Assembly: GCA_027622555.1 (NCBI GenBank)
Contig: JAQBYJ010000037.1
Location: forward strand, 1 to 45,878
DNA: 45,878 nt
DNA from: Verrucomicrobiota bacterium
GTDB lineage: Bacteria > Verrucomicrobiota > Verrucomicrobiia > Opitutales > UBA2995
Reading direction: 5' to 3'
Below are positions 75 to 16,401 of the stretch, in pieces. Below the pieces are notes generated by a model. It was given only the letters and a program-made list of their open reading frames with translations, ran no database searches and had not been told where the DNA came from. How positions within the stretch are numbered: position 1 is the stretch's first letter; every line of letters begins with the position of its first letter. Position numbers and translations under genes: made by a program.

Positions 75-2693
75 ATGCCCTCATTTAAGCATCACCCTCT
101 GGGGCTGGATCCTTACCTTGTCGAAGGAACACCTTTTGATGACCAATTGATTGCCCAGGGTCTGCCGGATCGGGCGACGCTGTTGTTGGCCTTATTGGGG
201 GATGTGGGGTCGAGCGAAAATCGCCTTTCCGACTTTACCTGGCTAGGCCACCACGCTTCCGACTTCGAGGAACTGTTTGAGGGAACGGAATTCGAAGGAG
301 CATTCGGCACGGGTCGTTTCCTCCTGGCAGATCATTTCTTCCCTCAGGGCGGCTTTATTGGTGCCTCAACCGTTGCGTTTCCAAAATTCCTGACAAGTGC
401 ACCGCCTGCGGCCGTGGGGACGTTGCTGGATGGCGGCGAGGATTTCGCCAAACTAGCTGCCGCAGCCGCAGAGTTGCTGGACTATTTGTTGACAACCGAA
501 ACCGTGGGACAATTGGCGTTCTACCTTCCCGCGCCGAATCCACCTCTGGCGCAATTTCCGGATGATTTCGAAGGACTGCTGGAATCATTCAATAGTTTCG
601 GTCAACCGGGTGGACCCTTCTATGGAGATTTTTATCCCGTCGACAAAACCTTCATGCGGGGTTGGGTGGATACGCCCTTGTTGGGTGTGCCGACCGGACG
701 TGCGGCGTTTGCCTACAACGGAGATACGGGAGTTATGGAACTAACTGCCGAGATTCCTGAAGACAGTTGGTTCAGTGATCTGGTAGGCGAAGCGAGTATT
801 ACACTCGGGCTTGAAGGAAACCATAAAGCGGTCGAGGACCTGCCGCTAAAATTCTGGAAACTGTCGGCTGAGCTGATCACCTCCATCAAGGAAGGAACGG
901 CAACCGACGAGGAGCGACAGGCGATGAAAGATGATTTTGTGGCGCAAGCCATCACTGATGTCGGTTTTGAGGGCATGATGGAACTGCTTTACGCGATGCC
1001 CAAGATGTCGGCTGTGTTGAATTTCAGTGAATTGACGATACCGGGTGTGTCCCCTGAATTGCCCCTTGCAAAGGTAGAAGGTGCCAGTCTCGAAATCTAT
1101 TCGCCCTATTTCAACCTTGCCGGCGCGGATGGTGATAACCCGCTCGACCGCGTGCGCCGCGAGGGCGGCATCGGTTTCTCAGGGTCCCTTTCATTGGGAG
1201 GAGGGCTTATTAGCATCTCCGAAGCCGAGCTGGCTGTGATAGGTAATTCGGTGAACCCACTCGTTTTCCCGGATGTTATCGGTTCTTTCAAGGCGGATGC
1301 GGTTGATTTTGATGGCATAAACCTGTTGCCCGGCAAGGGAGCACTGGAGGGTAGCTTCATGCTTGAATCCGGCTCGGCGATGCTGAGTATCGGTGCCGAA
1401 ATCGAATTGATTGACTTCGCAGGTCTTCAATTGATCCCGCTTGAGGATGATGCCGATGGGAAAATAGGAGTCAGTCTGGACTTGGAAGCTCCGGCAGGCG
1501 AGTGGGGTAACCTGGGTTTGTCGTTAAACGAAGCAATGATCCTACGCAGTCATTTCCTGGGAGATGCCGTGCAGGTTGTAGTGGACCCCTTTACCTTTTA
1601 TTCCGATGACAGCTGGACCGCTACGGCTCATTTTGATGGATCAGGAGTTCTGGAGTTGAAGGTCGGTGATGTTGTTTGGGCCAGTGTCCAGCCTGCGGGT
1701 GGAGACTGGGGAAAATTTGGTGCCGAGGTGAAAGGGTTTGGATATTCTGTTACAGAATTCAGCTTCGATGAACTGCCTCTTGGGGCTATCGTGCGCTTCC
1801 CCAAGCCGCCGTTTGGCAATTTAAGCCAGCTTGAATTCACGGTGGGGGCAGGTGGATCCGCCAGTCTTACCCTATCGTCGGAAGGATTTTCACTGGTGGC
1901 CCAAGTGAACAAGGCCTTTGGCTTCGATCCCCTGGGGGGCGGTGTGCTCGCTGAAGGATTCATGTTGGAGTTGACTCACGAGAGTCTTGAAGTTGTGGGT
2001 TCGTCCGACAAGTTTGTACTGGCCCCTGGAGTAATCCTGACCGCTAAGCTCGATGAAAATATTGAGTTTTCCCTGGATTATACTCTTGAGGATGGCTGGG
2101 ACGTGCTCATGGATCCAGCCTTTCTCCTGTTGAGTAATGTTGGGGTAGCCCAGCTTTTCACGATCGATGGCGGAGTTAAGGAAAAGGCCCCCGGATTATT
2201 GTCACCGTTTACTTTTTCTCAGAATGACGATTGGACCGCACGAATTACCCTGACGGAGCTCACTCTGGATGCCGATGGCGGCGGCGCATTGCCATCCATC
2301 GTCACAATAGCTCCATCGACCGGATCAGAAAGCCTGCTCTCGGCGACACTGAATGGGGTGGGCACAAGTTCCCTTTCCTTTGAAGCAGTTCGCAGTGGAA
2401 AAATCGACCTGACCTGGTTCCCGGAATCCGCGCTGGAAACCTCTATGGATGCGATTGATCCGGGCACCCTGACCATGCGCCTGGACATCAAGGATGGTTT
2501 TTCCATTAGCGTGTCCAAGCCGGACGAACTGATTCAGTTTCCCGGTTTCCCTTCCATTTCAGGTGGGGCCAACCTCGAAATCAATGAGGATGGTTTTGAA
2601 CTCCGGGGTATCAGCACGAGTAGCATACAGTTTCCTGCGACAGGCCTGAACCCACCCTTGTTTAAAATCGGAAGCATCCAACTCTGGAAATAG
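75..2693 (+). CDS. Large beta-rich repetitive protein, 5' part of a broken gene
   Basis: I do not recognise a family. The 872 residues are rich in Gly, Ser, Leu, Phe and acidic residues, with repeated short beta-strand-like blocks. Phrases such as FxFSxDDxWTA recur (near residues 508 and 716), suggesting a repetitive beta-solenoid or beta-sandwich surface protein. There is no signal peptide at this start, and no convincing ribosome binding site upstream. Another frame upstream (positions 5-85) also reads like protein, so the true N-terminus probably lies outside the window or behind a second frameshift. The frame closes at a TAG directly after a short A run, while the next frame carries on in the same compositional style. 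The protein is therefore probably the first part of one gene continuing to 3948. Function unknown; an adhesin-like role is only a guess. Confidence 0.6.
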   Translation: MPSFKHHPLGLDPYLVEGTPFDDQLIAQGLPDRATLLLALLGDVGSSENRLSDFTWLGHHASDFEELFEGTEFEGAFGTGRFLLADHFFPQGGFIGASTVAFPKFLTSAPPAAVGTLLDGGEDFAKLAAAAAELLDYLLTTETVGQLAFYLPAPNPPLAQFPDDFEGLLESFNSFGQPGGPFYGDFYPVDKTFMRGWVDTPLLGVPTGRAAFAYNGDTGVMELTAEIPEDSWFSDLVGEASITLGLEGNHKAVEDLPLKFWKLSAELITSIKEGTATDEERQAMKDDFVAQAITDVGFEGMMELLYAMPKMSAVLNFSELTIPGVSPELPLAKVEGASLEIYSPYFNLAGADGDNPLDRVRREGGIGFSGSLSLGGGLISISEAELAVIGNSVNPLVFPDVIGSFKADAVDFDGINLLPGKGALEGSFMLESGSAMLSIGAEIELIDFAGLQLIPLEDDADGKIGVSLDLEAPAGEWGNLGLSLNEAMILRSHFLGDAVQVVVDPFTFYSDDSWTATAHFDGSGVLELKVGDVVWASVQPAGGDWGKFGAEVKGFGYSVTEFSFDELPLGAIVRFPKPPFGNLSQLEFTVGAGGSASLTLSSEGFSLVAQVNKAFGFDPLGGGVLAEGFMLELTHESLEVVGSSDKFVLAPGVILTAKLDENIEFSLDYTLEDGWDVLMDPAFLLLSNVGVAQLFTIDGGVKEKAPGLLSPFTFSQNDDWTARITLTELTLDADGGGALPSIVTIAPSTGSESLLSATLNGVGTSSLSFEAVRSGKIDLTWFPESALETSMDAIDPGTLTMRLDIKDGFSISVSKPDELIQFPGFPSISGGANLEINEDGFELRGISTSSIQFPATGLNPPLFKIGSIQLWK

Positions 2694-2763: not shown

Positions 2764-3948
2764 TTGCCTTCCAATAAGATTAAGAAAGTTGAACTCCGGT
2801 CCTTTATCGGCTCAGGAAGTTTTATAGCCGCTTTGGAAACGAGTGACGATATTTCGCTGTTTGGAAATGGGCTGATTGAATTGAGGTCGGGGACCCATAC
2901 CTTCTTCGGTGATTTCGGAGATCCTCTGCTCCGTGTGGGCCTGTCTGCCTTGGGCATGCTAAACCTGGTTTACCCGAACCCAGCCAATCCTGCCACGACG
3001 TTGAGTAAGTCGTTTAATATCAACCTCGAGTTTGACAGCGATGGAGTATTCAGTCCGGTGGAAATTACGAACTCCTTGCCGTCCGTAGACCTGGAGTGGC
3101 TGGCGCTCGTCCCTAACGGTGGTGGTAGTGAAGGCAAATTTACCGTCGGTTATAGTGCAGGTGTGTTCAATCTGGCGGTGAGCGGCTACGATCTGGATCT
3201 ATTTAATCAGGGTTACACGGATCTGGGCATGAGTGCTTCCAGTAACGGCGTTGTTTCCGTGACTGGAGGCGGACTGGGAGCGAAGACCTTCCAGTTTGGA
3301 AGCGGGCAGGGCCTGATGCAGCTTGTGGCTGGGTCGCGTCTGCCCTTTAGCTGGAATGTGCAGACCGGAAGCTTTTCGTTGACCATGCCAAATAACCTGG
3401 AGCTGTCTTTCCTGGGTAATCCCGTATCTTCCGGAACATTATTGGATGGGTTCGATTTGGATGGATTTACCATCGACCAGACCGGCGCATTTGAGAAATC
3501 GTTCAGTCATAATCTGACGGTGAATGGAGCATCCCTTGGCAACTTTGGTATGGCCTTCAAAAGGGATTCAGCAAGTGATCCGATCGAACTCCTCATCGAC
3601 AATGAATCACTGAGTTACACAGGTGGGAACGGACTTCTGCTATCGATGCGGGCCGCCAGCACCGGATCCTTTGTTATCGGAATCTCGGGCTCGTTGTCCA
3701 TCAACGTCCAGAATACCGCCTTCGGAATTTTTGATGAACTGGATGGTAAGGCGGATGGAGTCTTGAAACTTTTGAACCTGGATCTCGATATTGTAAATCC
3801 GACCCAACCAGGGCTGAAATTCTCAGGCGAGGTTTCCTTCGTGGGCACGAAATTCATTCTCACCCTTGGTAGAACCGGATCAAATCTGACGGTCGTATTC
3901 ACGAACCTTGGTTCTCTTCCAACTCCATTCGTTCTGCCAAACCTGTAA
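2764..3948 (+). CDS. Large beta-rich repetitive protein, 3' part of the same broken gene
   Basis: The 394 residues have the same Gly/Ser/Leu/Phe-rich beta-strand style as the preceding reading frame. The formal start is a TTG, but the frame is open and protein-like from about 2650; the residues before the TTG include LSFGGGALTLSLGVPKGSF. Removing one A from the AAA at 2687-2689 would join the two frames as ...SIQLWNSLSFGGGAL..., which reads naturally. I therefore treat this as the C-terminal part of one gene with an authentic or sequencing frameshift. It ends in LPTPFVLPNL, with no autotransporter barrel, LPxTG or visible sorting domain. The next gene starts 118 bases downstream on the same strand and could belong to the same transcript. 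Confidence 0.55.
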   Translation: MPSNKIKKVELRSFIGSGSFIAALETSDDISLFGNGLIELRSGTHTFFGDFGDPLLRVGLSALGMLNLVYPNPANPATTLSKSFNINLEFDSDGVFSPVEITNSLPSVDLEWLALVPNGGGSEGKFTVGYSAGVFNLAVSGYDLDLFNQGYTDLGMSASSNGVVSVTGGGLGAKTFQFGSGQGLMQLVAGSRLPFSWNVQTGSFSLTMPNNLELSFLGNPVSSGTLLDGFDLDGFTIDQTGAFEKSFSHNLTVNGASLGNFGMAFKRDSASDPIELLIDNESLSYTGGNGLLLSMRAASTGSFVIGISGSLSINVQNTAFGIFDELDGKADGVLKLLNLDLDIVNPTQPGLKFSGEVSFVGTKFILTLGRTGSNLTVVFTNLGSLPTPFVLPNL

Positions 3949-4066: not shown

Positions 4067-5722
4067 ATGTTTCGACCGTTTATCTTCCTGATCCTGTCCC
4101 TTATCCTGGGAATCCTGGGTTGGTCTGTACCTGTTTACTGGCAGTTGGTTAATAGCCAGTTGCTGGAAGCGGTAGGAATAGGAACCCCGAGCCTCGTCGA
4201 TTCGGCCACAAGCCAGGTGCAGCTGGATCATCTTGGCGTCGCAGCTATTTTTCTCGATGCTGCTGAATCGCTTGAAGTGGAAGGTGTGACCCCGGTCAGG
4301 CAGAGTATTGCCAGGACAATTGAGCTCTTTCCGGAGTACGCCATTTCTGGTGGACCCGATATTTATTTTGATCAAATCCTGCGCCTGGATCCGCAGCTAC
4401 GAGTGGCGACTCGCACCGAACTGATCTTCAATCTGATTCCTTCTCAGACTCGAACAACGCTTTTATCATTTTTAGAAAACTCCCGGAGTACGTCCGTTCA
4501 AGCCGTTATCGCAACGCGCGACATGGCTGGAACCCGTCAATTTATGCCCGTCTACTCCGCGGCTGGCCAACCCTTGGAAGCGACCATTCTGCTCACCGCT
4601 TTGTTGATGCAAGGTAACCATTTGTCCCCGGAAGTAGCTGCCAATATTCGTACCTTGGCTGACAACAAAGCCGACGCCTACGCCGTCTCTGATTTGGAAC
4701 GGATCTACTTCGCACTCTTTTCTTTGGGCAAACGCATGAATTGGAATCAGTTGGTTCAACTACTGCCCTTTTTGGAAGATACAGAGTTGCTGGAAAATGT
4801 AGCAGCTTACGCCCGAAACCATGACGAAACGTTTGGCTGGATCTATGCGGCGATTATTCAACAGCAGAGCTCTCGTTCAGTTATTCAATATCTGGAGACC
4901 TACCCCAAGGAAGGTTTAGACAATCTGGGAATGTCTCTTAGCTTTGGGAAGGGGGCATTGGACTACTTACTCTTACAGATGAAGAAAGTGGAGGAACCTC
5001 GACTCCGCATGCAATTGGCTGAGCGGGTGCCTTGGTTGTTGGGTAATCCTGCTTTCCTTCTTCCCGCTGCCAGAAATCCTGGCGCGTTTCTCATTTTCAA
5101 AGGTCTCTTTACAGCTCTGTCAGCGTTTTGTTTGACCTCCTTCGCGATGCAGGCGTTTCCCTTACTATTTCATACATTCAAGCGAACTCGCAAACCACCA
5201 ATCCTTGTAAACGCTTTAAGAACGCTCACTCTAACCTTGATTCTTGCCTTTTTAATTATCCTGATAACGGAACCTGGCGTGCTTCGGCAAAGTCAAACAC
5301 CTCAACCTGAGGTTCGACTTGAGTGGGCGTTTCAAGATACCGTAGAATCCTTATTCACTCCAACAGAACGAAAAGATACCATGGACCAGATCACAATCAT
5401 CACACTCTCGATCTTCTTCCTTATGCAAACGGCCCTTTACATGGCTGGGCTCATTAAGCTTACCGAAATCAGAAAGATGGACGCTTCACCGACTCTCAAA
5501 CTCCAGCTCATTGAAAATGAGGATCAACTCTTTGATAGTGGACTCTATTTGGGACTCACAGGAACCGTTCTTTCTTTGATCTTTCTTGCGGTGGGCGTTG
5601 TCCAGGCCAGCTTGATGGCCGCGTATTCGTCTACCCTTTTTGGCATCATCTTTGTCGCCATTCTCAAGGTGTTACATGTGCGACCTTTTCGTAAGACCCT
5701 TCTTTTACTCGTGCACAAGTAG
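4067..5722 (+). CDS. Multi-pass membrane protein with C-terminal MotA/TolQ/ExbB-like module
   Basis: The 551-residue protein is not a close match to any family I know. Visible topology: an N-terminal signal anchor (about 4-25), a 310-residue mostly helical, presumably periplasmic domain, then hydrophobic segments at about 339-368, 383-401, 441-463, 492-513 and 518-536. The last three segments repeat the layout of MotA/TolQ/ExbB: a helix, a charged cytoplasmic loop (464-490), then two adjacent helices opening with GLYLGLTGTVLSLIFLAVG. That stretch resembles the G-x-x-G-T-V signature of ExbB/TolQ helices. The next gene starts two bases after the stop and encodes a protein with a single membrane helix containing an Asp, as ExbD/MotB partners do. 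Inference: an ion-channel stator subunit with an unusual added periplasmic domain. The stator assignment is moderate; membrane location is firm. Confidence 0.7.
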   Translation: MFRPFIFLILSLILGILGWSVPVYWQLVNSQLLEAVGIGTPSLVDSATSQVQLDHLGVAAIFLDAAESLEVEGVTPVRQSIARTIELFPEYAISGGPDIYFDQILRLDPQLRVATRTELIFNLIPSQTRTTLLSFLENSRSTSVQAVIATRDMAGTRQFMPVYSAAGQPLEATILLTALLMQGNHLSPEVAANIRTLADNKADAYAVSDLERIYFALFSLGKRMNWNQLVQLLPFLEDTELLENVAAYARNHDETFGWIYAAIIQQQSSRSVIQYLETYPKEGLDNLGMSLSFGKGALDYLLLQMKKVEEPRLRMQLAERVPWLLGNPAFLLPAARNPGAFLIFKGLFTALSAFCLTSFAMQAFPLLFHTFKRTRKPPILVNALRTLTLTLILAFLIILITEPGVLRQSQTPQPEVRLEWAFQDTVESLFTPTERKDTMDQITIITLSIFFLMQTALYMAGLIKLTEIRKMDASPTLKLQLIENEDQLFDSGLYLGLTGTVLSLIFLAVGVVQASLMAAYSSTLFGIIFVAILKVLHVRPFRKTLLLLVHK

Positions 5723-5724
5723 TC

Positions 5725-7176
5725 ATGAATAAAACACTGCTTCTCATCATCTGTGACTTTCTGCTGCTAAGCCTTTTGGCTCTAGCCCGGTTTGACGCGC
5801 CGGAAGAGGAGCAGTCCGAGCAACAAGTACTTCCGGAGGATCCCATCCAGGCACAGGAAGACATTATTGAAGTGCTGAAGCTTTCACTGGAGCTCGAGGA
5901 AGCATCGAATCAGAATATTGTTGCTTCCCTTCAAGATACGCAAAAAGAGTTGGAAACGACCTCCAGTACACTGGAAAACCGTGAAAAAGAATTGCAGCTA
6001 ACTCAGGAAGAACGGGAAACCCTGGCTCTGGCAAAAAAAGAATTGGAGAAAAACCTACAGGAACGCATTGCTGTTTTGGAAAGAACCGAAGCGGATGTTA
6101 AGCAATTGAGTACCGTTCTGGAGGAAGAGCGACGGGAGGCCGATAGAAAGCTTCGTCAGATGGAAACGCTCCAAAAAGAACTTCAAGATAAACAAGCTGC
6201 AATCGCCCAAGCAGAAACACGTCAGAAAGAACTGGAAGAGGGCCAGCGCCAAGCAGAACGGAAGGCGCAAACCCTGGACACGCAACTTCAGCTTGCGGAG
6301 GCAGAAAGTCGTTTGGTTCGTGAAAACCTGGAACAGGTTCGTGTGGAAGCGGCCACCGTTCGCGACGATAACGTTCGTTTGCAGGAACACGCTTCTCAAC
6401 TCGCTACTCAACTTACTGCGGGCGTAAATGCCCAGAGTGACCGTCTTTCTGAAATCGCCGAGGAAGTTCGCAAGTCCCAACCCAGAAACCCGAATCAGAT
6501 ATTTACGGACTTTGTTGGAAGTGGTGTGACCGTCGATCTTCGCTATCAGAAATCGACTCGAGGCGGCGACGAAAGAAGAGTAACGATTCGCCCCGTCATG
6601 GTCTCCGATGGCCAAGAACTTAAAGCTCTTATCACCTGGGAGGACACAGGCTTGTCAGAAAACGATTTACGCAACATGAGTCTGAATTTGCGCGGGGACA
6701 TTCGGCTTGGACGTTACACCTACCCCTTAACGACAATCAGTTTTCTTTCCACCGATACGCGCATTTTGGTTGTTCCCCTGGAATCTACTTGGGCGAGCCT
6801 TTTGGAAACAGAACCTTTTTACATTGCTACCGATCCCTTAAAATTTGAATATGCTGTTCTAATCGATTCTGAAACTGGAACCTCAGGAGAAGCCAAATTC
6901 AAAGTGGATATCAGCACACCCGACCACTTTAGGATCGATAGCCGCTTCTTAAATAGGCTCATGGGCGAATTTTCACCCAAGGAATCAGATATTATGTTCA
7001 GTAAAACTGGCGATTTCCTCGGAGTATTGGTGAACAAAGAATACGCCGTTCACATCGATAATTTTGTACCCGCCGAAACAGTCACGCTTGGTCAAGCCGA
7101 TACCATATTGCAGCTCCAAACAGGTTATACGCGTATGGTGAATCAAGTGAGGAGACTCCCTTCGGATGTTAGGTGA
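5725..7176 (+). CDS. Single-pass membrane protein with long periplasmic coiled coil; possible MotB/ExbD-like partner
   Basis: The 483-residue protein begins with one membrane helix (about 4-22, MNKTLLLIICDFLLLSLLAL) bearing Asp11 near its cytoplasmic side. ExbD and MotB carry their proton-binding Asp in a comparable short N-terminal helix. A long, strongly heptad-like coiled coil rich in Glu, Gln, Lys and Arg follows at about 50-250. A globular C-terminal domain (about 255-483) with beta-strand character follows that. I see no OmpA-type peptidoglycan-binding motif. The ATG lies two bases after the upstream stop, so the pair is almost certainly co-translated. Inference: the coiled coil spans the periplasm and passes force from the channel module to a target. 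Alternative: a structural coiled-coil protein of unrelated function. Confidence 0.7.
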   Translation: MNKTLLLIICDFLLLSLLALARFDAPEEEQSEQQVLPEDPIQAQEDIIEVLKLSLELEEASNQNIVASLQDTQKELETTSSTLENREKELQLTQEERETLALAKKELEKNLQERIAVLERTEADVKQLSTVLEEERREADRKLRQMETLQKELQDKQAAIAQAETRQKELEEGQRQAERKAQTLDTQLQLAEAESRLVRENLEQVRVEAATVRDDNVRLQEHASQLATQLTAGVNAQSDRLSEIAEEVRKSQPRNPNQIFTDFVGSGVTVDLRYQKSTRGGDERRVTIRPVMVSDGQELKALITWEDTGLSENDLRNMSLNLRGDIRLGRYTYPLTTISFLSTDTRILVVPLESTWASLLETEPFYIATDPLKFEYAVLIDSETGTSGEAKFKVDISTPDHFRIDSRFLNRLMGEFSPKESDIMFSKTGDFLGVLVNKEYAVHIDNFVPAETVTLGQADTILQLQTGYTRMVNQVRRLPSDVR

Positions 7177-7290: not shown

Positions 7291-7638
7291 ATGAAAATTA
7301 ATGCTTACTTAAAACCACAATGTGGATGGAGCATGGGCGTGCGCGCTATCATGCAAAAGCACGGTCTCGAATACCAAGATATTGATATTATCAATTCTGC
7401 TGAAAACTACGCCGAAATGGTCCGCAAATCAGGTCAACCGCTGTCTCCCTGTGTAGAAGTCGACGGCATCATGCTTGCTGATGTGAGCGGGGAAGAAGTC
7501 GAAGCTTATTTGCTTTCCAACAAGCTGGTCGGTCAAAACGACGCTGAGGTTGGAGTTCCAACCGACCGCGGATGTTCTGACGAAGAACACGTGAAAATGC
7601 GCGAAGAGCAGGAAGCCAAACCGATTCGCTTCTTTTAG
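7291..7638 (+). CDS. Glutaredoxin family protein, CGWS active site
   Basis: This 115-residue protein has a glutaredoxin/thioredoxin fold: the N-terminal strand MKINAYLKPQ, then a C11-G-W-S14 active site, the cis-Pro region LSPCVEVDG (P53) and a C-terminal VSGEEVEAYL helix. Glutaredoxins reduce disulfides or handle glutathione adducts in the cytoplasm. The single active-site Cys followed by Ser suggests a monothiol mechanism. Additional Cys54, next to the cis-Pro, and Cys95, in an extra charged tail, could act as resolving residues. The gene stands alone, with a 114-base gap upstream and a strong terminator directly downstream. Family assignment is good; the physiological partner is unknown. 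Confidence 0.85.
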   Translation: MKINAYLKPQCGWSMGVRAIMQKHGLEYQDIDIINSAENYAEMVRKSGQPLSPCVEVDGIMLADVSGEEVEAYLLSNKLVGQNDAEVGVPTDRGCSDEEHVKMREEQEAKPIRFF

Positions 7639-7755: not shown

Positions 7756-7989
7756 ATGGATACAGCTAAACTGTTTAAAAATGGGAGTAGTCAGGCGGTC
7801 CGTTTACCGAAAAATTATCGGCTTCCAGGTAAGCAGGTTTTCATCCGTCGGCTAGGAAAGGGTATCGTGCTTATGCCTGAAGTGGGATCATGGGATACCC
7901 TTATTGAGAGCATTCACCAATTTACCGATGATTTTTCATCGGCTCGGGAGCAAGGTGAAGTCGATGAAAGGGAATCGTTGTTTGAATGA
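7756..7989 (+). CDS. vapB: VapB-type antitoxin (AbrB/MazE-like)
   Basis: From the ATG at 7756 the product is 77 residues. It starts MDTAKLFKNGSSQAVRLPK, the classic swapped-hairpin AbrB/VapB N-terminus, followed by the strand-rich VFIRRLGKGIVLMPE and an acidic C-terminal tail that would bind and block the toxin. The reading frame is open further upstream to 7690, but that stretch overlaps the promoter and does not resemble the family, so I reject the longer start. The stop overlaps the vapC start (ATGA), as in translationally coupled toxin-antitoxin pairs. VapB neutralises VapC and represses its own promoter with the toxin as corepressor (family knowledge). Confidence 0.9.
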   Translation: MDTAKLFKNGSSQAVRLPKNYRLPGKQVFIRRLGKGIVLMPEVGSWDTLIESIHQFTDDFSSAREQGEVDERESLFE

Positions 7990-8384
7990 AGTACCTGCTC
8001 GATACCGACATTTGCATCTATATTATCAAAAAGAGACCTGAATCTGTGTTTGCTCGATTTAGAAAATGTGCGATTGGTGATATCGGAATTTCTTCCATCA
8101 CCTATGCAGAATTATGCTTTGGTGTCTATAAGAGCCAAAATGTCGAAAAAAATCTGGAAGCCTTAGGGGGATTTGTAGCACCTCTGGAAATTATTCCTTA
8201 CGAGCAACCTGCTTGCCTTGCCTATGGCAAAGTAAGGAGTGAGTTGGAAAATGCAGGTCAACCTATTGGTCCGCTAGATACTTTAATTGCATCTCATGCG
8301 GTGAGCTTAGGTGTTACCTTGGTCACTAACAATATCAAAGAATTCAATCGAATTGAAAGTCTCAAGGTTGAGACTTGGACGTAA
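7986..8384 (+). CDS. vapC: VapC-type PIN-domain ribonuclease toxin
   Basis: The 132-residue protein is a full-length PIN domain. The acidic metal-binding residues are in their usual places: Asp6 in MKYLLDTDICIYI, Glu42 in ITYAEL, Asp98 in GPLDTLIASHA, and the NN pair (115-116) in TNNIKEF. VapC toxins cut specific RNAs, commonly initiator tRNA or the sarcin-ricin loop, when freed from VapB; the target here cannot be read from sequence. The ATG overlaps the antitoxin stop by four bases. All catalytic positions appear intact, so the toxin should be active. Confidence 0.92.
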   Translation: MKYLLDTDICIYIIKKRPESVFARFRKCAIGDIGISSITYAELCFGVYKSQNVEKNLEALGGFVAPLEIIPYEQPACLAYGKVRSELENAGQPIGPLDTLIASHAVSLGVTLVTNNIKEFNRIESLKVETWT

Positions 8385-11716: not shown

Positions 11717-14700
11717 TTATTCTAAACTATCCAAGTAAGCAACGAGATCGATGAGTTCTTCTTGCGTCATGGTTTGATCCAGACCTTGCGGCATCAGAGA
11801 TACGACTCCCGGTTGAATCGTTTTGATGGAAGATCGCGGAATGGGTTTAGCCACGGCGGTGGCATCCAACAAGAAAATGGTATCCGCGGTTTCTCGTTGA
11901 ACCACGCCGAGCAGAGATTGGCCATCTGTAGTTTCGATTACATACGATTCAAAATCCCGGGCAAGATTGATACTGGGAAACAAAATCGATTCAAGGAGAT
12001 CCTGCTTCGTTCGTATCTGTCCTATCTGACTTAAATTCGGGCCGACTTCGTGACCCTCGTTACCGATCTGATGACAGGTTATACAGGCACCTTTGCCGGA
12101 AATAAAAGCTGCTTTGCCACGCGTTGGGTCGCCTGTTTCCAATTTCGAGCTCACCTCAGCCAGATGTTTTTCGCGTTGTTCCTCTTGAGCGAAGAGCTGT
12201 TTCACTAACGGCTTGCCGCGATCATAAACGTCGGGAGGAAAGGAGGCGAGCATCCGCTGCAGTTCGGATGGGGAAAGAACATTGGCGGCGGCAGAGCTTT
12301 CCAGTGCATTCACCAAAGCAATGCCGGAAGGGGCGTCCCTGTGTTTTTCAAAAATGCTTACCAGCAATGGAATTTCTAAGGGGCCTACAGTTTTCATTAA
12401 TTCGGTCACCTCTCGAACTTGTTCCTTTGTGAAGGTCGCTTTGGATAAGATCTGTGCCGCATCCAGACGTTGCAAAGACCCGCTCGTTGGAGCCAGCAAT
12501 TGGCTTAGCATTGAAAACGCGGACGGGCTCATCGGCCCCTTTGCCTGAGAGATAGCCCCAAGTGCTTTGATCCGGATCAAAGGGGGGTGAGAGGTGTTGT
12601 CGCCGATCCTGGTGAGTTCATTATCGAAATGATCGGTGTCTATTTTCGCGAGGGCATCGATCGCCAGAGACATGGTCTCGACATGGGCACTCCACAAAGC
12701 AGATTCGAATTCGCGTTCCCAACGCTCGTTGAGTTTTACCGGCTTTAGACTTTCGGAGATGAGCCGAAACGCATGAACTGATTCTTCCCCATCTTTCGCC
12801 TCGAAGATGCGGTTCACGAAATTCTGTATATCCGCGTTTGTGAGATAGAAGGGGACGAGCGCGTTTACCGCAGTCTTCTGTTGCCCGGTTAAATCGCCGT
12901 TATTTTTCCATTGATGAAACGCGGTCGCGATGTCGCTCGCCCATTCGGGATGAAGTTTGGAGATAGTGATTGCCGTTTCCTGCAGTGGGATTGAAACCGA
13001 ATTTAAAAAGGGTACGACTTGATTGGCGCCTAACTGGGAATCCTGCATCCCGTCCAAAGCCCAGAGAGATCGGCGTTGAACGTCAGCCAAGTTTTTCCCC
13101 AACGCCTTTTTCGTCTGACCGAAATCGTTGATTTCAATCAAAGCATAAATCGCCGCGTGCTCCCTGGTTCGATCCATGGGTCGTTCTATAAATTTCAGCA
13201 ACGCTTCGATCGCTTTTGAATCGCCGATTCTTCCCAAGGCACGTGCTGCTGCCATTTGAACAGCCGCTTGCTGATTGTGGAGTAAAAGGTGAGCGAGGTC
13301 CTTAATCGCATGTGTATCTCTGGTTTTCCAGATGCTGTTACAGGCGGTGTGTCGGATGGTTGTCTCTTCGTCCTTCAATGCGTCTCTGACTAGTTCCATG
13401 GCCTCAGACGATCCAATTCGAGTGAGCGCCCATATGGCGTTGCGTCGTGCTTCCACGGTTCCGTTTGTTAAAACGGATTTCAGGTCGCCGACTCCACCAT
13501 TTCCTAATTCTGCCATCGATGCGATTGCGCGATCTCGAACCGCGAATCGTGGGTCGTCCAGGAATGCAGCAAGCTCTGTGGGAGAAGCGTTTGACCAATC
13601 AATATCCAAGCCCCGAAAATCGGTTTTTTGGTCAACGACTCCTGCGTTTCGAATTCGGTAGATCGCTCCGGCAATCTCTGGTTTCGCAATCTGGGAAATC
13701 GGACATCCATCGCGAAACCAGCCGCCCGTATCGATCACCAGCAAGCTGCCATCGGCGCCTTCAATGATGTCTGTTAAATGCACATCGGGATCATCGATGA
13801 CCAAAAAGTCTTCTTCCTTCACATGACCAAAGGTAGCTTCGTTTTTCTCGATTACCGAGCGTGTTACCTTTTGCGTATTGAAATGAGTGGTAAAAAGATT
13901 TCCGGCATAGTCGCCCAAAATGGTGCCCGATCTATAGAGATTGATTCCGGATACGGCGACATGACCAAAGTTGTGAAACTCTTTGAGAAGGTCACCGGTC
14001 CGTGTAAACTCCTCGAGAACGGTTTCCTGGTCGTAGCGCGGATAGGCTCCTCCATACTGCCAGTGGACCAGCGTGTCTCCACGCGGTCGCCCATACATGA
14101 GGTTTATATCGCCAATAATTTCGCCTTCCGGAGTGAACACAATTTCCACCGGGTTATCCATTCCACCACCTGCGTAAATCTGCACGTCACTGCCGTCCGG
14201 TTCGCAGGACCAGATGCGGGCACCTTTACCTTTGTGGATCAGGTTTCCGTTCTTGTCGTGCACATCCAAATCCTTGCGCCCGTGGCACCAGAATATACGG
14301 CCATTGGGATGCAGAAAAGGCCCGTGCAAATCGGCGGCATTTCCGGTGTACCCAAAACCGTTGACGATCTCTTCCCGTTTGTCGGCAACGCCATCATCGT
14401 CCGTGTCCTCCAGTCGCCAGATGGATGGAGCTGCGGTGACCCAAAGAGCGCCGTCGTGCCACAAGGTGCCCGATGGGAAAGTCAGGTCTTTGGCAAATAC
14501 AGTGGAGTGGTCGAATAGACCATCCTGGTTGTTATCAACCAACATTCGAATGAAGTTCGGTTTCTCCACATCAAGCACACTCGCTTTCAGATTCAACCCG
14601 GCGGCTTCGGCCACAAACAGTCTTCCACGATCGTCAAAGTTTCCCATCATCGGATGTCGGGTGAGTGGGGGAGCGGCGGCCACCTCTGCGATCAGGCCTT

Positions 14701-16258
14701 CCGGCAAAGTCATTTCAGGGACGGTCACCGATAGATCTACTGCTGGCAGAACTTGGACCGTTGAAGGGTGATTGCCGGTTTGCCCCCTAACTGTTTCTTT
14801 GCCCCAAACATGGTAGCGGGTCTGGGAAGCACCTCCGTTCCATAAGTCATATTCCGGAGAAGCGTTGTCACTGAAGAACTGGTTCAATCGCGATTGCAGT
14901 TCCTGTTTTATCGCAGCAACGGAATCCTGGTATATCAAGTTCTGTTGTTCTCCGGGGTCCTCAGCCAGATGATAGAGTTCATCGTAACCGTCTTCGAAAC
15001 GTTCGATATATTTCCAATCCCTGGTCCGGATGCAGCGCAAGCTTTCGTATTCGTAGAAAACCGTGTCATCCCAATCGGACATCGTTTCTCCTCGAAGGAT
15101 TCCTGAATAGTCCCTGCCGGGCGACTGCGGGGAATCCGGTGTTTTTTCTTTCAACCCCAGATAGCTGAGAATCGATGGCATAAAATCATAATTGCTAACC
15201 ATGTGATCGCTTACCCTTCCGCCGGGAATCTTTTGCCTGGTACTATCCTTTCCGGAGGGATGTCTCAGGATTAGTGGTATCTGCATCGAATGTTCGAAGG
15301 CGTTTACCGGCCTTGTATGATCTCCCATTCCCCAGAGTCCGTGTTGTCCACCAGCCCAGCCCTGATCCGCCGCGAATACGACCAGTGTATTTTCATCCAG
15401 ACCCAGCTCCTTTAGTTTTTGCAAAACAGCACCGACTCCATCGTCGATGGCACTCAGTTCTTCCGCGTAACGGCGGATGCTCACCGGGTTTCCGAAGTAT
15501 TGACGATTTGAAAACTGCCACGGATGAATTACCCCGCCGGGAAATGAGCTCAACGATTTATCAGCGTAGTAATTGGCATGCTGGTTGCCCGACGATTCCA
15601 ATTGATAACCGCTGAGTCCGTAGGGTCCGTTGTAAGCCAGGTAGAGAAAGAATGGATCATCCTTATTCGTTTCGATGAAATTACAGGCGTTGTCCGTCCA
15701 TAACTGAGTCAGGTAAGTCGGCTCGTTACGCGTCTCTCCGTTTTCGATGACCTGTGCATTGTGAAATGTGTTGGTCCCGCCGTGGGGCATGGTGATCCAG
15801 TAATCCTCGAGTCCTTCCTGGGGATGAAGATTATCGCCCAGGTGCCATTTACCAACCAGCCCACACTTGTAGCCTTCTGCTTTCAGGATCTCGGGAAGCG
15901 ACGTAAAGTGCTCCAAAGTGTTGCGCGCGTCCGGACCGACCTGGAGCCGACCAGCGGTCAGGAAGTTGTGTACCCCATGTTGCGACGGCATCAGCCCGGT
16001 AAGGTAGGTCGCACGGGTCGGCGAGCAAACCGCATTGTTTGCAAAGGCATGAGAAAACCGAATCCCTTCAGCCGCCATCCGATCGATATGGGGTGTTCTA
16101 ATATCCGGGTTGCCGTAACAACCAAGCGTCCAGGCACCGTGGTTGTCCGTTAGAATGAAGACCACGTTGGTCTTTTCGGCTGCATAGGTTGCGGCTAATC
16201 CCAAAAGGGTGAAGAACAAGCAAGTGACTCGGAGCACAATAGGGGCGCGCTTTCTCAT
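11717..16258 (-). CDS. Sulfatase / PVC beta-propeller / HEAT / CxxCH haem fusion protein
   Basis: I place the start at the ATG at 16258, because the product then begins MRKRAPIVLRVTCLFFTLLG, a good signal peptide; the frame extends 44 codons further upstream without family-like sequence. The product is 1513 residues. Residues about 29-470 form a type I sulfatase with the formylglycine signature C78-S-P-T-R and GKWHLGD. Residues about 515-900 form a PVC-type membrane-bound dehydrogenase beta-propeller (FDDRGRLFVAEAAG, WRLEDTDDDGVAD). Residues about 910-1340 look like HEAT/ARM repeats (VQMAAARALGRIGDSKAIEALL). The C-terminus is a cytochrome c-like haem domain with C1392-I-T-C-H1396. Expected role: periplasmic sulfate-ester hydrolysis coupled physically to a haem-dependent oxidation. 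The fusion is continuous and in frame. Separate homologous parts are neighbours at 29341-34447. Confidence 0.85.
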   Translation of the reverse strand: MRKRAPIVLRVTCLFFTLLGLAATYAAEKTNVVFILTDNHGAWTLGCYGNPDIRTPHIDRMAAEGIRFSHAFANNAVCSPTRATYLTGLMPSQHGVHNFLTAGRLQVGPDARNTLEHFTSLPEILKAEGYKCGLVGKWHLGDNLHPQEGLEDYWITMPHGGTNTFHNAQVIENGETRNEPTYLTQLWTDNACNFIETNKDDPFFLYLAYNGPYGLSGYQLESSGNQHANYYADKSLSSFPGGVIHPWQFSNRQYFGNPVSIRRYAEELSAIDDGVGAVLQKLKELGLDENTLVVFAADQGWAGGQHGLWGMGDHTRPVNAFEHSMQIPLILRHPSGKDSTRQKIPGGRVSDHMVSNYDFMPSILSYLGLKEKTPDSPQSPGRDYSGILRGETMSDWDDTVFYEYESLRCIRTRDWKYIERFEDGYDELYHLAEDPGEQQNLIYQDSVAAIKQELQSRLNQFFSDNASPEYDLWNGGASQTRYHVWGKETVRGQTGNHPSTVQVLPAVDLSVTVPEMTLPEGLIAEVAAAPPLTRHPMMGNFDDRGRLFVAEAAGLNLKASVLDVEKPNFIRMLVDNNQDGLFDHSTVFAKDLTFPSGTLWHDGALWVTAAPSIWRLEDTDDDGVADKREEIVNGFGYTGNAADLHGPFLHPNGRIFWCHGRKDLDVHDKNGNLIHKGKGARIWSCEPDGSDVQIYAGGGMDNPVEIVFTPEGEIIGDINLMYGRPRGDTLVHWQYGGAYPRYDQETVLEEFTRTGDLLKEFHNFGHVAVSGINLYRSGTILGDYAGNLFTTHFNTQKVTRSVIEKNEATFGHVKEEDFLVIDDPDVHLTDIIEGADGSLLVIDTGGWFRDGCPISQIAKPEIAGAIYRIRNAGVVDQKTDFRGLDIDWSNASPTELAAFLDDPRFAVRDRAIASMAELGNGGVGDLKSVLTNGTVEARRNAIWALTRIGSSEAMELVRDALKDEETTIRHTACNSIWKTRDTHAIKDLAHLLLHNQQAAVQMAAARALGRIGDSKAIEALLKFIERPMDRTREHAAIYALIEINDFGQTKKALGKNLADVQRRSLWALDGMQDSQLGANQVVPFLNSVSIPLQETAITISKLHPEWASDIATAFHQWKNNGDLTGQQKTAVNALVPFYLTNADIQNFVNRIFEAKDGEESVHAFRLISESLKPVKLNERWEREFESALWSAHVETMSLAIDALAKIDTDHFDNELTRIGDNTSHPPLIRIKALGAISQAKGPMSPSAFSMLSQLLAPTSGSLQRLDAAQILSKATFTKEQVREVTELMKTVGPLEIPLLVSIFEKHRDAPSGIALVNALESSAAANVLSPSELQRMLASFPPDVYDRGKPLVKQLFAQEEQREKHLAEVSSKLETGDPTRGKAAFISGKGACITCHQIGNEGHEVGPNLSQIGQIRTKQDLLESILFPSINLARDFESYVIETTDGQSLLGVVQRETADTIFLLDATAVAKPIPRSSIKTIQPGVVSLMPQGLDQTMTQEELIDLVAYLDSLE

Positions 16259-16401
16259 TTCCAAAGTGTGGGTATTGGAATCCGTCGGTGCAATATTGAA
16301 GAATGACCTTGTTCTAATCGTGCTGGTAAAAAGTCTAGTTGGATTCTGATCTCTTTTCGAGCGACTTACTTGGCGAAAGATCCCCTGCAACCAGCGTGGG
16401 T

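Follow-up and report, generated by a model that had tools for sequence, protein, structure and literature searches.

Genes A and B are a genuine, closely linked gene pair of the phylum Verrucomicrobiota that seems not to have been described before, and their products probably assemble into a stator-like, ion-driven complex of the inner membrane, operating in the manner of ExbBD, TolQR, or MotAB, with a rod ending in a predicted pseudoprotease. The pair lies in the window, the whole stretch of 45,878 nucleotides that was analyzed, which comes from a genome assembly of 6.0 Mb in 238 contigs. An earlier note on this DNA had described two genes separated by two bases, and the open reading frame calls agree, with both frames on the + strand:

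4067..5722, + strand: gene A, an open reading frame of 551 amino acids (aa) for a membrane protein, the putative ring or channel subunit
5725..7176, + strand: gene B, an open reading frame of 483 aa for a single-pass rod protein, the putative axle subunit

The association is not a product of chance, as confirmed by the joint occurrence of the two genes across the phylum and by the presence of Asp11 of B in all 121 distinct B proteins. Among 288 genomes sampled from Verrucomicrobiota, 97 contain A, and all 97 also carry B next to it; the two share a contig and a strand, A precedes B, and the matched ends are 6 to 431 bases apart. Searching with B, 214 of the 288 genomes match at E ≤ 0.001, of which we kept the 98 with E values below 1e-16, a limit chosen after viewing the table; the weaker matches among those listed are to the coiled coil. 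These 98 genomes match B beyond its coiled coil, and only one of them (G178, with a B frame of 161 aa) lacks A, a count that is not wholly independent because some rows of the B profile were themselves identified next to A.

The A homologues fall into two groups. In 32 of the 97 genomes they are near full length, all within the window's order, and 65 are in other classes, with no rows from the same class outside that order among the 288 genomes. Outside the order, 62 of 65 have frames of 171 to 347 aa, most matching only the last ~110 to 120 residues; the other 3 (family f42) have frames of 581 to 604 aa whose upstream part is unmatched by the profile. Closer to the window, B is matched in 32 of 53 relatives, and the window plus the 31 loci around B matches comprise 32 that hold a B match and 28 with A beside it. 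Two loci (L053 of genome G041 and L055 of G022) have B apart from A, with an intact A frame elsewhere in each genome; at L061 the match is a plain coiled coil with A absent beside it, and L060 of genome G014, which has no A match, keeps a B remnant of 272 aa from which the rod and the Asp helix are missing. The best named matches to the locus are to uncultured Opitutales, with Coraliomargarita and Cerasicoccus lower (best 80 of 143 loci). One locus among these best 80 of 143 is titled Rhodospirillaceae, going by its title only. A plasmid search with one short A returned no match.

The traits of the ExbD, TolR, and MotB small subunits, a single N-terminal membrane helix and an invariant Asp, are both present in B, whose parts are as follows:

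5734..5784, + strand: N-terminal membrane helix of B, residues 4-20 (4-19 in the AlphaFold model, plus alignment)
5755..5757, + strand: Asp11 of B, the invariant acid within the membrane helix (121/121 distinct B proteins)
5860..6348, + strand: single long helix of B, residues 46-208 (163 residues), a predicted coiled-coil rod (AlphaFold model and weak coiled-coil library matches)
6481..7155, + strand: C-terminal domain of B, residues 253-477, by prediction a chymotrypsin/HtrA fold (Foldseek, VIA, and alignment)

The acid in the helix is unvarying, as the earlier note's reading of Asp11 would have it: after merging of cut-off copies (128 proteins before, 121 after), Asp11 occurs in all 121, with Cys10 in 105 and Phe12 in 117. 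The N-terminal match is absent from only 2 of 186 B frames, the L060 remnant and L233. The L233 frame is interrupted by Ns, and the DNA ahead of the break still reads ICDF. The AlphaFold model of B (mean pLDDT, 82.6) places strands between residues 268 and 454 and draws residues 46-208 as one helix, in line with the coiled-coil rod anticipated behind the Asp11 helix. The median length of B is 597 aa at 19 loci of other classes versus 491 aa at 42 further loci, and the rod is probably longer in the former, which speaks against a fixed length with which it would span the periplasm.

The AlphaFold model of A (mean pLDDT, 81.1), together with homologue alignments, divides the protein into these segments and sites:

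4073..4126, + strand: first membrane helix of A, residues 3-20 (AlphaFold model)
4154..5077, + strand: almost all-helical region of A, residues 30-337, predicted periplasmic (AlphaFold model; side from Lys and Arg counts)
5078..5269, + strand: helices 338-363 and 379-401 of A, with a Lys/Arg-rich turn between them (AlphaFold model)
5387..5719, + strand: conserved three-helix module of A, residues 441-551, the 111 C-terminal residues (homologue alignments)
5564..5566, + strand: Thr500 of A, in the GxxGT of the second module helix, aligned to the Thr of the ExbB-type GTV motif
5630..5635, + strand: Ser522-Thr523 of A, in the third module helix, aligning with the TTxFG of ExbB-type proteins

The module helices in the model (441-470, 491-508, and 515-550) lie close to those first read from the sequence (441-463, 492-513, and 518-536). 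Across 24 rows, Lys plus Arg per 10 residues is 0.62 (402-440) and 0.4 (509-514) in the loops placed outside and 1.93 (364-378), 1.82 (464-490), and 2.4 (538-551) in the segments placed inside, and because these residues are scarce in the outside loops and abundant in the inside ones, the module is predicted to run out-in, in-out, out-in. The three core helices of ExbB have this same order, and the predicted layout suits a ring protein of the ExbB kind paired with a partner of one membrane helix, much as had been suggested. The extra domain of 310 residues attributed to A fares less evenly: the helical region is there, but it is not a core feature, since 62 of 65 homologues outside the order have at most 347 aa and region 30-337 is unmatched in most homologues from other classes.

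Conservation within the module is concentrated at polar and small residues. The alignment held 132 rows originally, 133 with the window, and 131 once near-copies were collapsed, and among these 131 position 500 is Thr in 126 and Ser in 5, position 522 is Ser in 129, and position 523 is Thr in 111 and Asn in 20. The motifs GxxGT and S-(T/N)-x-x-G are thus kept, and they align with the ExbB motifs. Also conserved are Gln454, Gly496, Ala519, Tyr520, Gly526, and a Lys or Arg at 534, each in all 131 rows, and Asp490 in 130.

None of the family models tried assigns A or B to a known motor. In Pfam, each protein has one weak match far below the cutoff, that of B being unrelated. The MotA/TolQ/ExbB model PF01618 does not match the window's A even at an E limit of 10 and exceeds its cutoff at nine other places of the source genome; in 27 A members it is absent from the best 25 of 36 families, the rest being single weak matches. 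The ExbD/TolR and OmpA-like models are likewise absent from the best 25 of 87 Pfam families in 51 B members, and the MotA_ExbB, ExbD, MotB, and Zorya models match neither window protein. In NCBIfam searches with six proteins, the matches to A were all weak and unrelated and those to B lay in coiled coils, and the PADLOC Zor models, run on four proteins, gave none for A and only JetC/LmuB, within the coiled coil, for B. Structure searches were similarly empty for A: Foldseek with the whole model found nothing (best E, 0.6), whole-chain fold searches returned weak helical matches with no ExbB-like entry among the matches listed, and a PDB profile search listed nine sequences, the majority of them designed helical proteins, with FtsX among the remainder and no ExbB-like chain among those listed.

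Profile-profile comparison places A at the margin of similarity to ExbB. Aligned by hhalign to ExbB-type proteins of related genomes, the last two helices of A yield probabilities of 20%, 19%, and 25% (the last with 56 sequences); in the 25% run (score, 22.1; 46 columns), 2 of 400 permuted controls are as good, and in other runs 3 of 300 and 4 of 250 segment-permuted controls reach the score, as do 0 of 200 whole shuffles. With the ExbB loop cut out, the probability is 40% over three helices (1 of 250 permuted controls as good), and against the uncut ExbB alignment the module gives 2.6% and 1.8%. The best of 35 unrelated gene clusters used as decoys, only 5 of which have two or more membrane helices, scores 20.5 over 13 columns versus 22.1 for A. 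The alignment pairs GLTGTV of A with GLLGTV of ExbB-type proteins and STLFG with their TTxFG. At L142, the GTV and TT threonines are 33 residues apart, the spacing of ExbB Thr148 and Thr181, which we take to be the GTV and TT motif threonines. ExbB Thr148 and Thr181 with Asp25, and TolQ Thr145 and Thr178 with Asp23, are called essential in the part of the source used here (PMC12905483). The proposed homology of A to MotA/ExbB is therefore left with a motif alignment and a marginal 25% hhalign match in its favor and with the failure of the family models against it; because these models are unmatched and the profile similarity is marginal, we liken the working of A to that of an ExbB-type subunit but do not assign it to that family.

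The C-terminal domain of B, which had been thought new, is by prediction a degenerate chymotrypsin/HtrA fold. Foldseek searches of the PDB with the head model give 87 matches at E ≤ 0.001, led by HTRA1 (E, 4.5e-6; probability, 1.00), and HtrA/Deg proteins account for 49 among the best 50 of the 87, with fits at root mean square deviations (rmsd) of 5.7 to 10.9 among the matches listed. VIA gives Z scores from 12.3 for the best row to 10.5 at rank 50, over 146 to 181 residues, and its best 50 rows all bear the titles of chymotrypsin-like proteases or domains. The double barrel characteristic of these folds is present in the predicted model. No conserved His-Asp-Ser triad appears in an alignment, itself uncertain, of 51 sequences, in which the best His column reaches 43% and the best Ser column 53%; Arg346 (90%), Asp422 (88%), and Asp344 (82%) stand out in that alignment, as columns not mapped onto a protease structure. 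Because a working triad needs a conserved His and Ser, the head is predicted to be a pseudoprotease. Against 27 HtrA sequences from related genomes, hhalign detects no relation (probability, 0.3), so it is the predicted fold that ties the head to HtrA. No Pfam match to a PDZ domain occurs in the window's B.

The surroundings of the pair vary, and no neighboring gene is universal across A-B loci. The idea that the complex acts on the beta-rich protein encoded upstream finds no support, as the upstream proteins of 872 and 394 aa have no BLAST match in the 63 other A-B loci (E, 1e-8; half length; loci only). A gene that reads as peptide deformylase-like occurs in 21 loci, mostly directly upstream and on the opposite strand; a glutaredoxin-like gene occurs in nine, including the window, where B precedes it; and, in other classes, 8 of 21 loci have behind B a gene that reads as Ser/Thr kinase-like.

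The complex that we propose would operate as follows. Several copies of the three-helix module of A would ring the N-terminal helices of B, and periplasmic ions would bind to and then leave Asp11, aided by Thr500 and by Ser522 and Thr523 of A. Through this cycle the ring of A would rotate or move against the axle of B, and the motion would travel along the helical rod to the periplasmic pseudoprotease head. There the head would bind, without cutting it, a partner that may be peptidoglycan, a protein of the outer membrane, or an unfolded client. Several observations favor such a stator-like complex: Asp11 is fixed while its neighbors Cys10 and Phe12 vary, the module is kept even as the rest of A shrinks in other classes, and the genome without an A match, G014, retains only a B remnant devoid of the Asp helix and rod. 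Against it stand the Asn that replaces Thr523 in 20 of 131 rows, the lack of a match to the motor family models tried for either protein, an hhalign similarity sometimes equaled by permuted controls, the loose head fits and lack of an HtrA relation by hhalign, the short cytoplasmic loop of A (~27 residues), and a rod that probably has no fixed span.

Alternatively, the pair could be a static envelope scaffold, held together by a contact of Asp11 with A, either a buried charge or a hydrogen bond to a residue such as Lys/Arg534 or Gln454, while the rod and head position a partner. Both candidate contacts are present in 131 of 131 module rows and the MotA/ExbB similarity of A is marginal, but a scaffold gives no role to the conserved Thr and Ser positions that align with ExbB-type motifs, and we regard it as unlikely, though the strongest of the alternatives. 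Less credible still is an envelope sensor, with B as an anchored protein of the DegS/HtrA type whose non-cutting head binds peptides and with A relaying the signal across the membrane. The nearest fold matches of the head include DegS and HtrA, and the kinase-like gene behind B in other classes would suit signaling; the window, however, has a glutaredoxin-like gene in that place, its B has neither a PDZ match nor a conserved triad, and the invariant acid in the membrane helix would go unexplained, making a sensor improbable.

Very improbable is that B is a lipoprotein, with Cys10-Asp11 serving as a lipobox whose Asp+2 would retain it in the inner membrane. Cys10 is followed by Asp in 105 of the 121 distinct B proteins, but the 16 without Cys10 all keep Asp11. 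A lipobox needs a small residue directly before its Cys, and position 9 of B is Ile, Val, Met, or Leu in 120 of 121; moreover, Cys10 comes after only about five hydrophobic residues, and the stretch that they begin continues past it. The variation at Cys10, the bulky position 9, and this continued stretch together disfavor a lipoprotein.

Should A and B indeed form a stator-like complex, they may represent a new class of membrane motor powered by ions, known to date from Verrucomicrobiota alone, in which a minimal ring swings or rotates a rod whose pseudoprotease acts on envelope clients in the periplasm, and which is too far from ExbB and MotA in sequence to show common descent; we advance this broader claim tentatively. 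Few families of ion-driven 5:2 motors have been described, and the pair, uncaught by the family models tried, would widen the class. It would provide a small natural ring subunit of ~180 residues, along with a case of a protease fold put to new use at the output end of a motor, and the invariant Asp11 offers a single-residue test point for the motor reading.

In the 5:2 motors, a pentamer encloses a dimer whose mid-membrane Asp is conserved, according to the portion of the source used here (PMC9389320), and GldLM and ZorAB are named with ExbBD and TolQR as such motors in the portion used of another (PMC12905483). A 2025 survey, as excerpted here, describes generic ion transporters with varied extensions on the A subunit and a compact peptidoglycan-binding fold on B, and the excerpt makes no mention of a chymotrypsin-fold head (PMC12505986). 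Our literature search yielded no description that we recognized as the A-B pair. Like ExbBD and TolQR, the pair consists of two adjacent genes, with a three-helix core in A that carries Thr motifs in helix two and, in most rows, helix three and a single-helix partner with an invariant Asp. It differs from them in that A is unmatched by the family model, occurs with a large helical insert or in a bare short form, and has a cytoplasmic loop much shorter than in the ExbB-type sequences compared, and in that B bears a long rod and a predicted chymotrypsin-fold head in place of the ExbD/TolR periplasmic domain.

The short form of A reads by eye as four hydrophobic helices, recalling MotAB and PomAB, and B has an Asp-Phe inside its membrane helix, as does MotB; unlike these systems, B has no match to an OmpA-like domain, A has no large cytoplasmic domain, and no flagellar gene was noticed beside the pair. 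A long extension on one subunit is shared with GldLM and ZorAB, from which A and B differ in having no PADLOC Zorya match and no Pfam match over the cutoff. DegS has an N-terminal membrane helix, and B resembles DegS and HtrA both in this helix and in its predicted chymotrypsin fold. It departs from them in its lack of a conserved His and Ser and of a PDZ match, and in possessing a long helical rod, an Asp within the membrane helix, and a partner gene, A.

Two proteins encoded upstream of A, the putative channel subunit, look beta-rich from the appearance of their sequences; neither matched anything in a Pfam search, and BLAST against the 63 other A/B loci likewise returned no matches for either. 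The gene that follows B, the adjoining partner of A, is glutaredoxin-like in the window and is common to 8 further loci.

Features in and beyond the window
Window 75-2693: beta-rich-looking protein, 872 aa, upstream of A
Window 2764-3948: beta-rich-looking protein, 394 aa, upstream of A
Window 7291-7638: gene following B, glutaredoxin-like by Pfam (E 6.1e-11)
Window 7986-8384: small PIN-domain-like ORF (by reading of the sequence)
Window 11717-16390 (-): 1557 aa ORF (by reading of the sequence)
L060:8718-9536: B head alone, 272 aa, genome G014
L291 (G000:C14:28000-29200): ExbB-type protein, same genome as the window

In genomes of other taxonomic classes, a Ser/Thr protein kinase-like gene, recognized by reading, lies downstream of B at 8 loci (L102, L104, L105, L106, L110, L111, L113, and L121). 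The PIN-domain-like ORF may encode the toxin component of a toxin-antitoxin system, and the 1557 aa ORF reads as a sulfatase fused to a large dehydrogenase/cytochrome-like protein.

The B head in L060 begins with a signal-like start, lacks both the Asp helix and the rod, and adjoins a peptide deformylase-like gene, in the same arrangement as in relatives. Genome G014, which carries this head, contains no match to A; perhaps A and the start of B were lost in a single deletion event.

The ExbB-type protein at L291 has a strongly shortened cytoplasmic loop and is a possible intermediate in layout.
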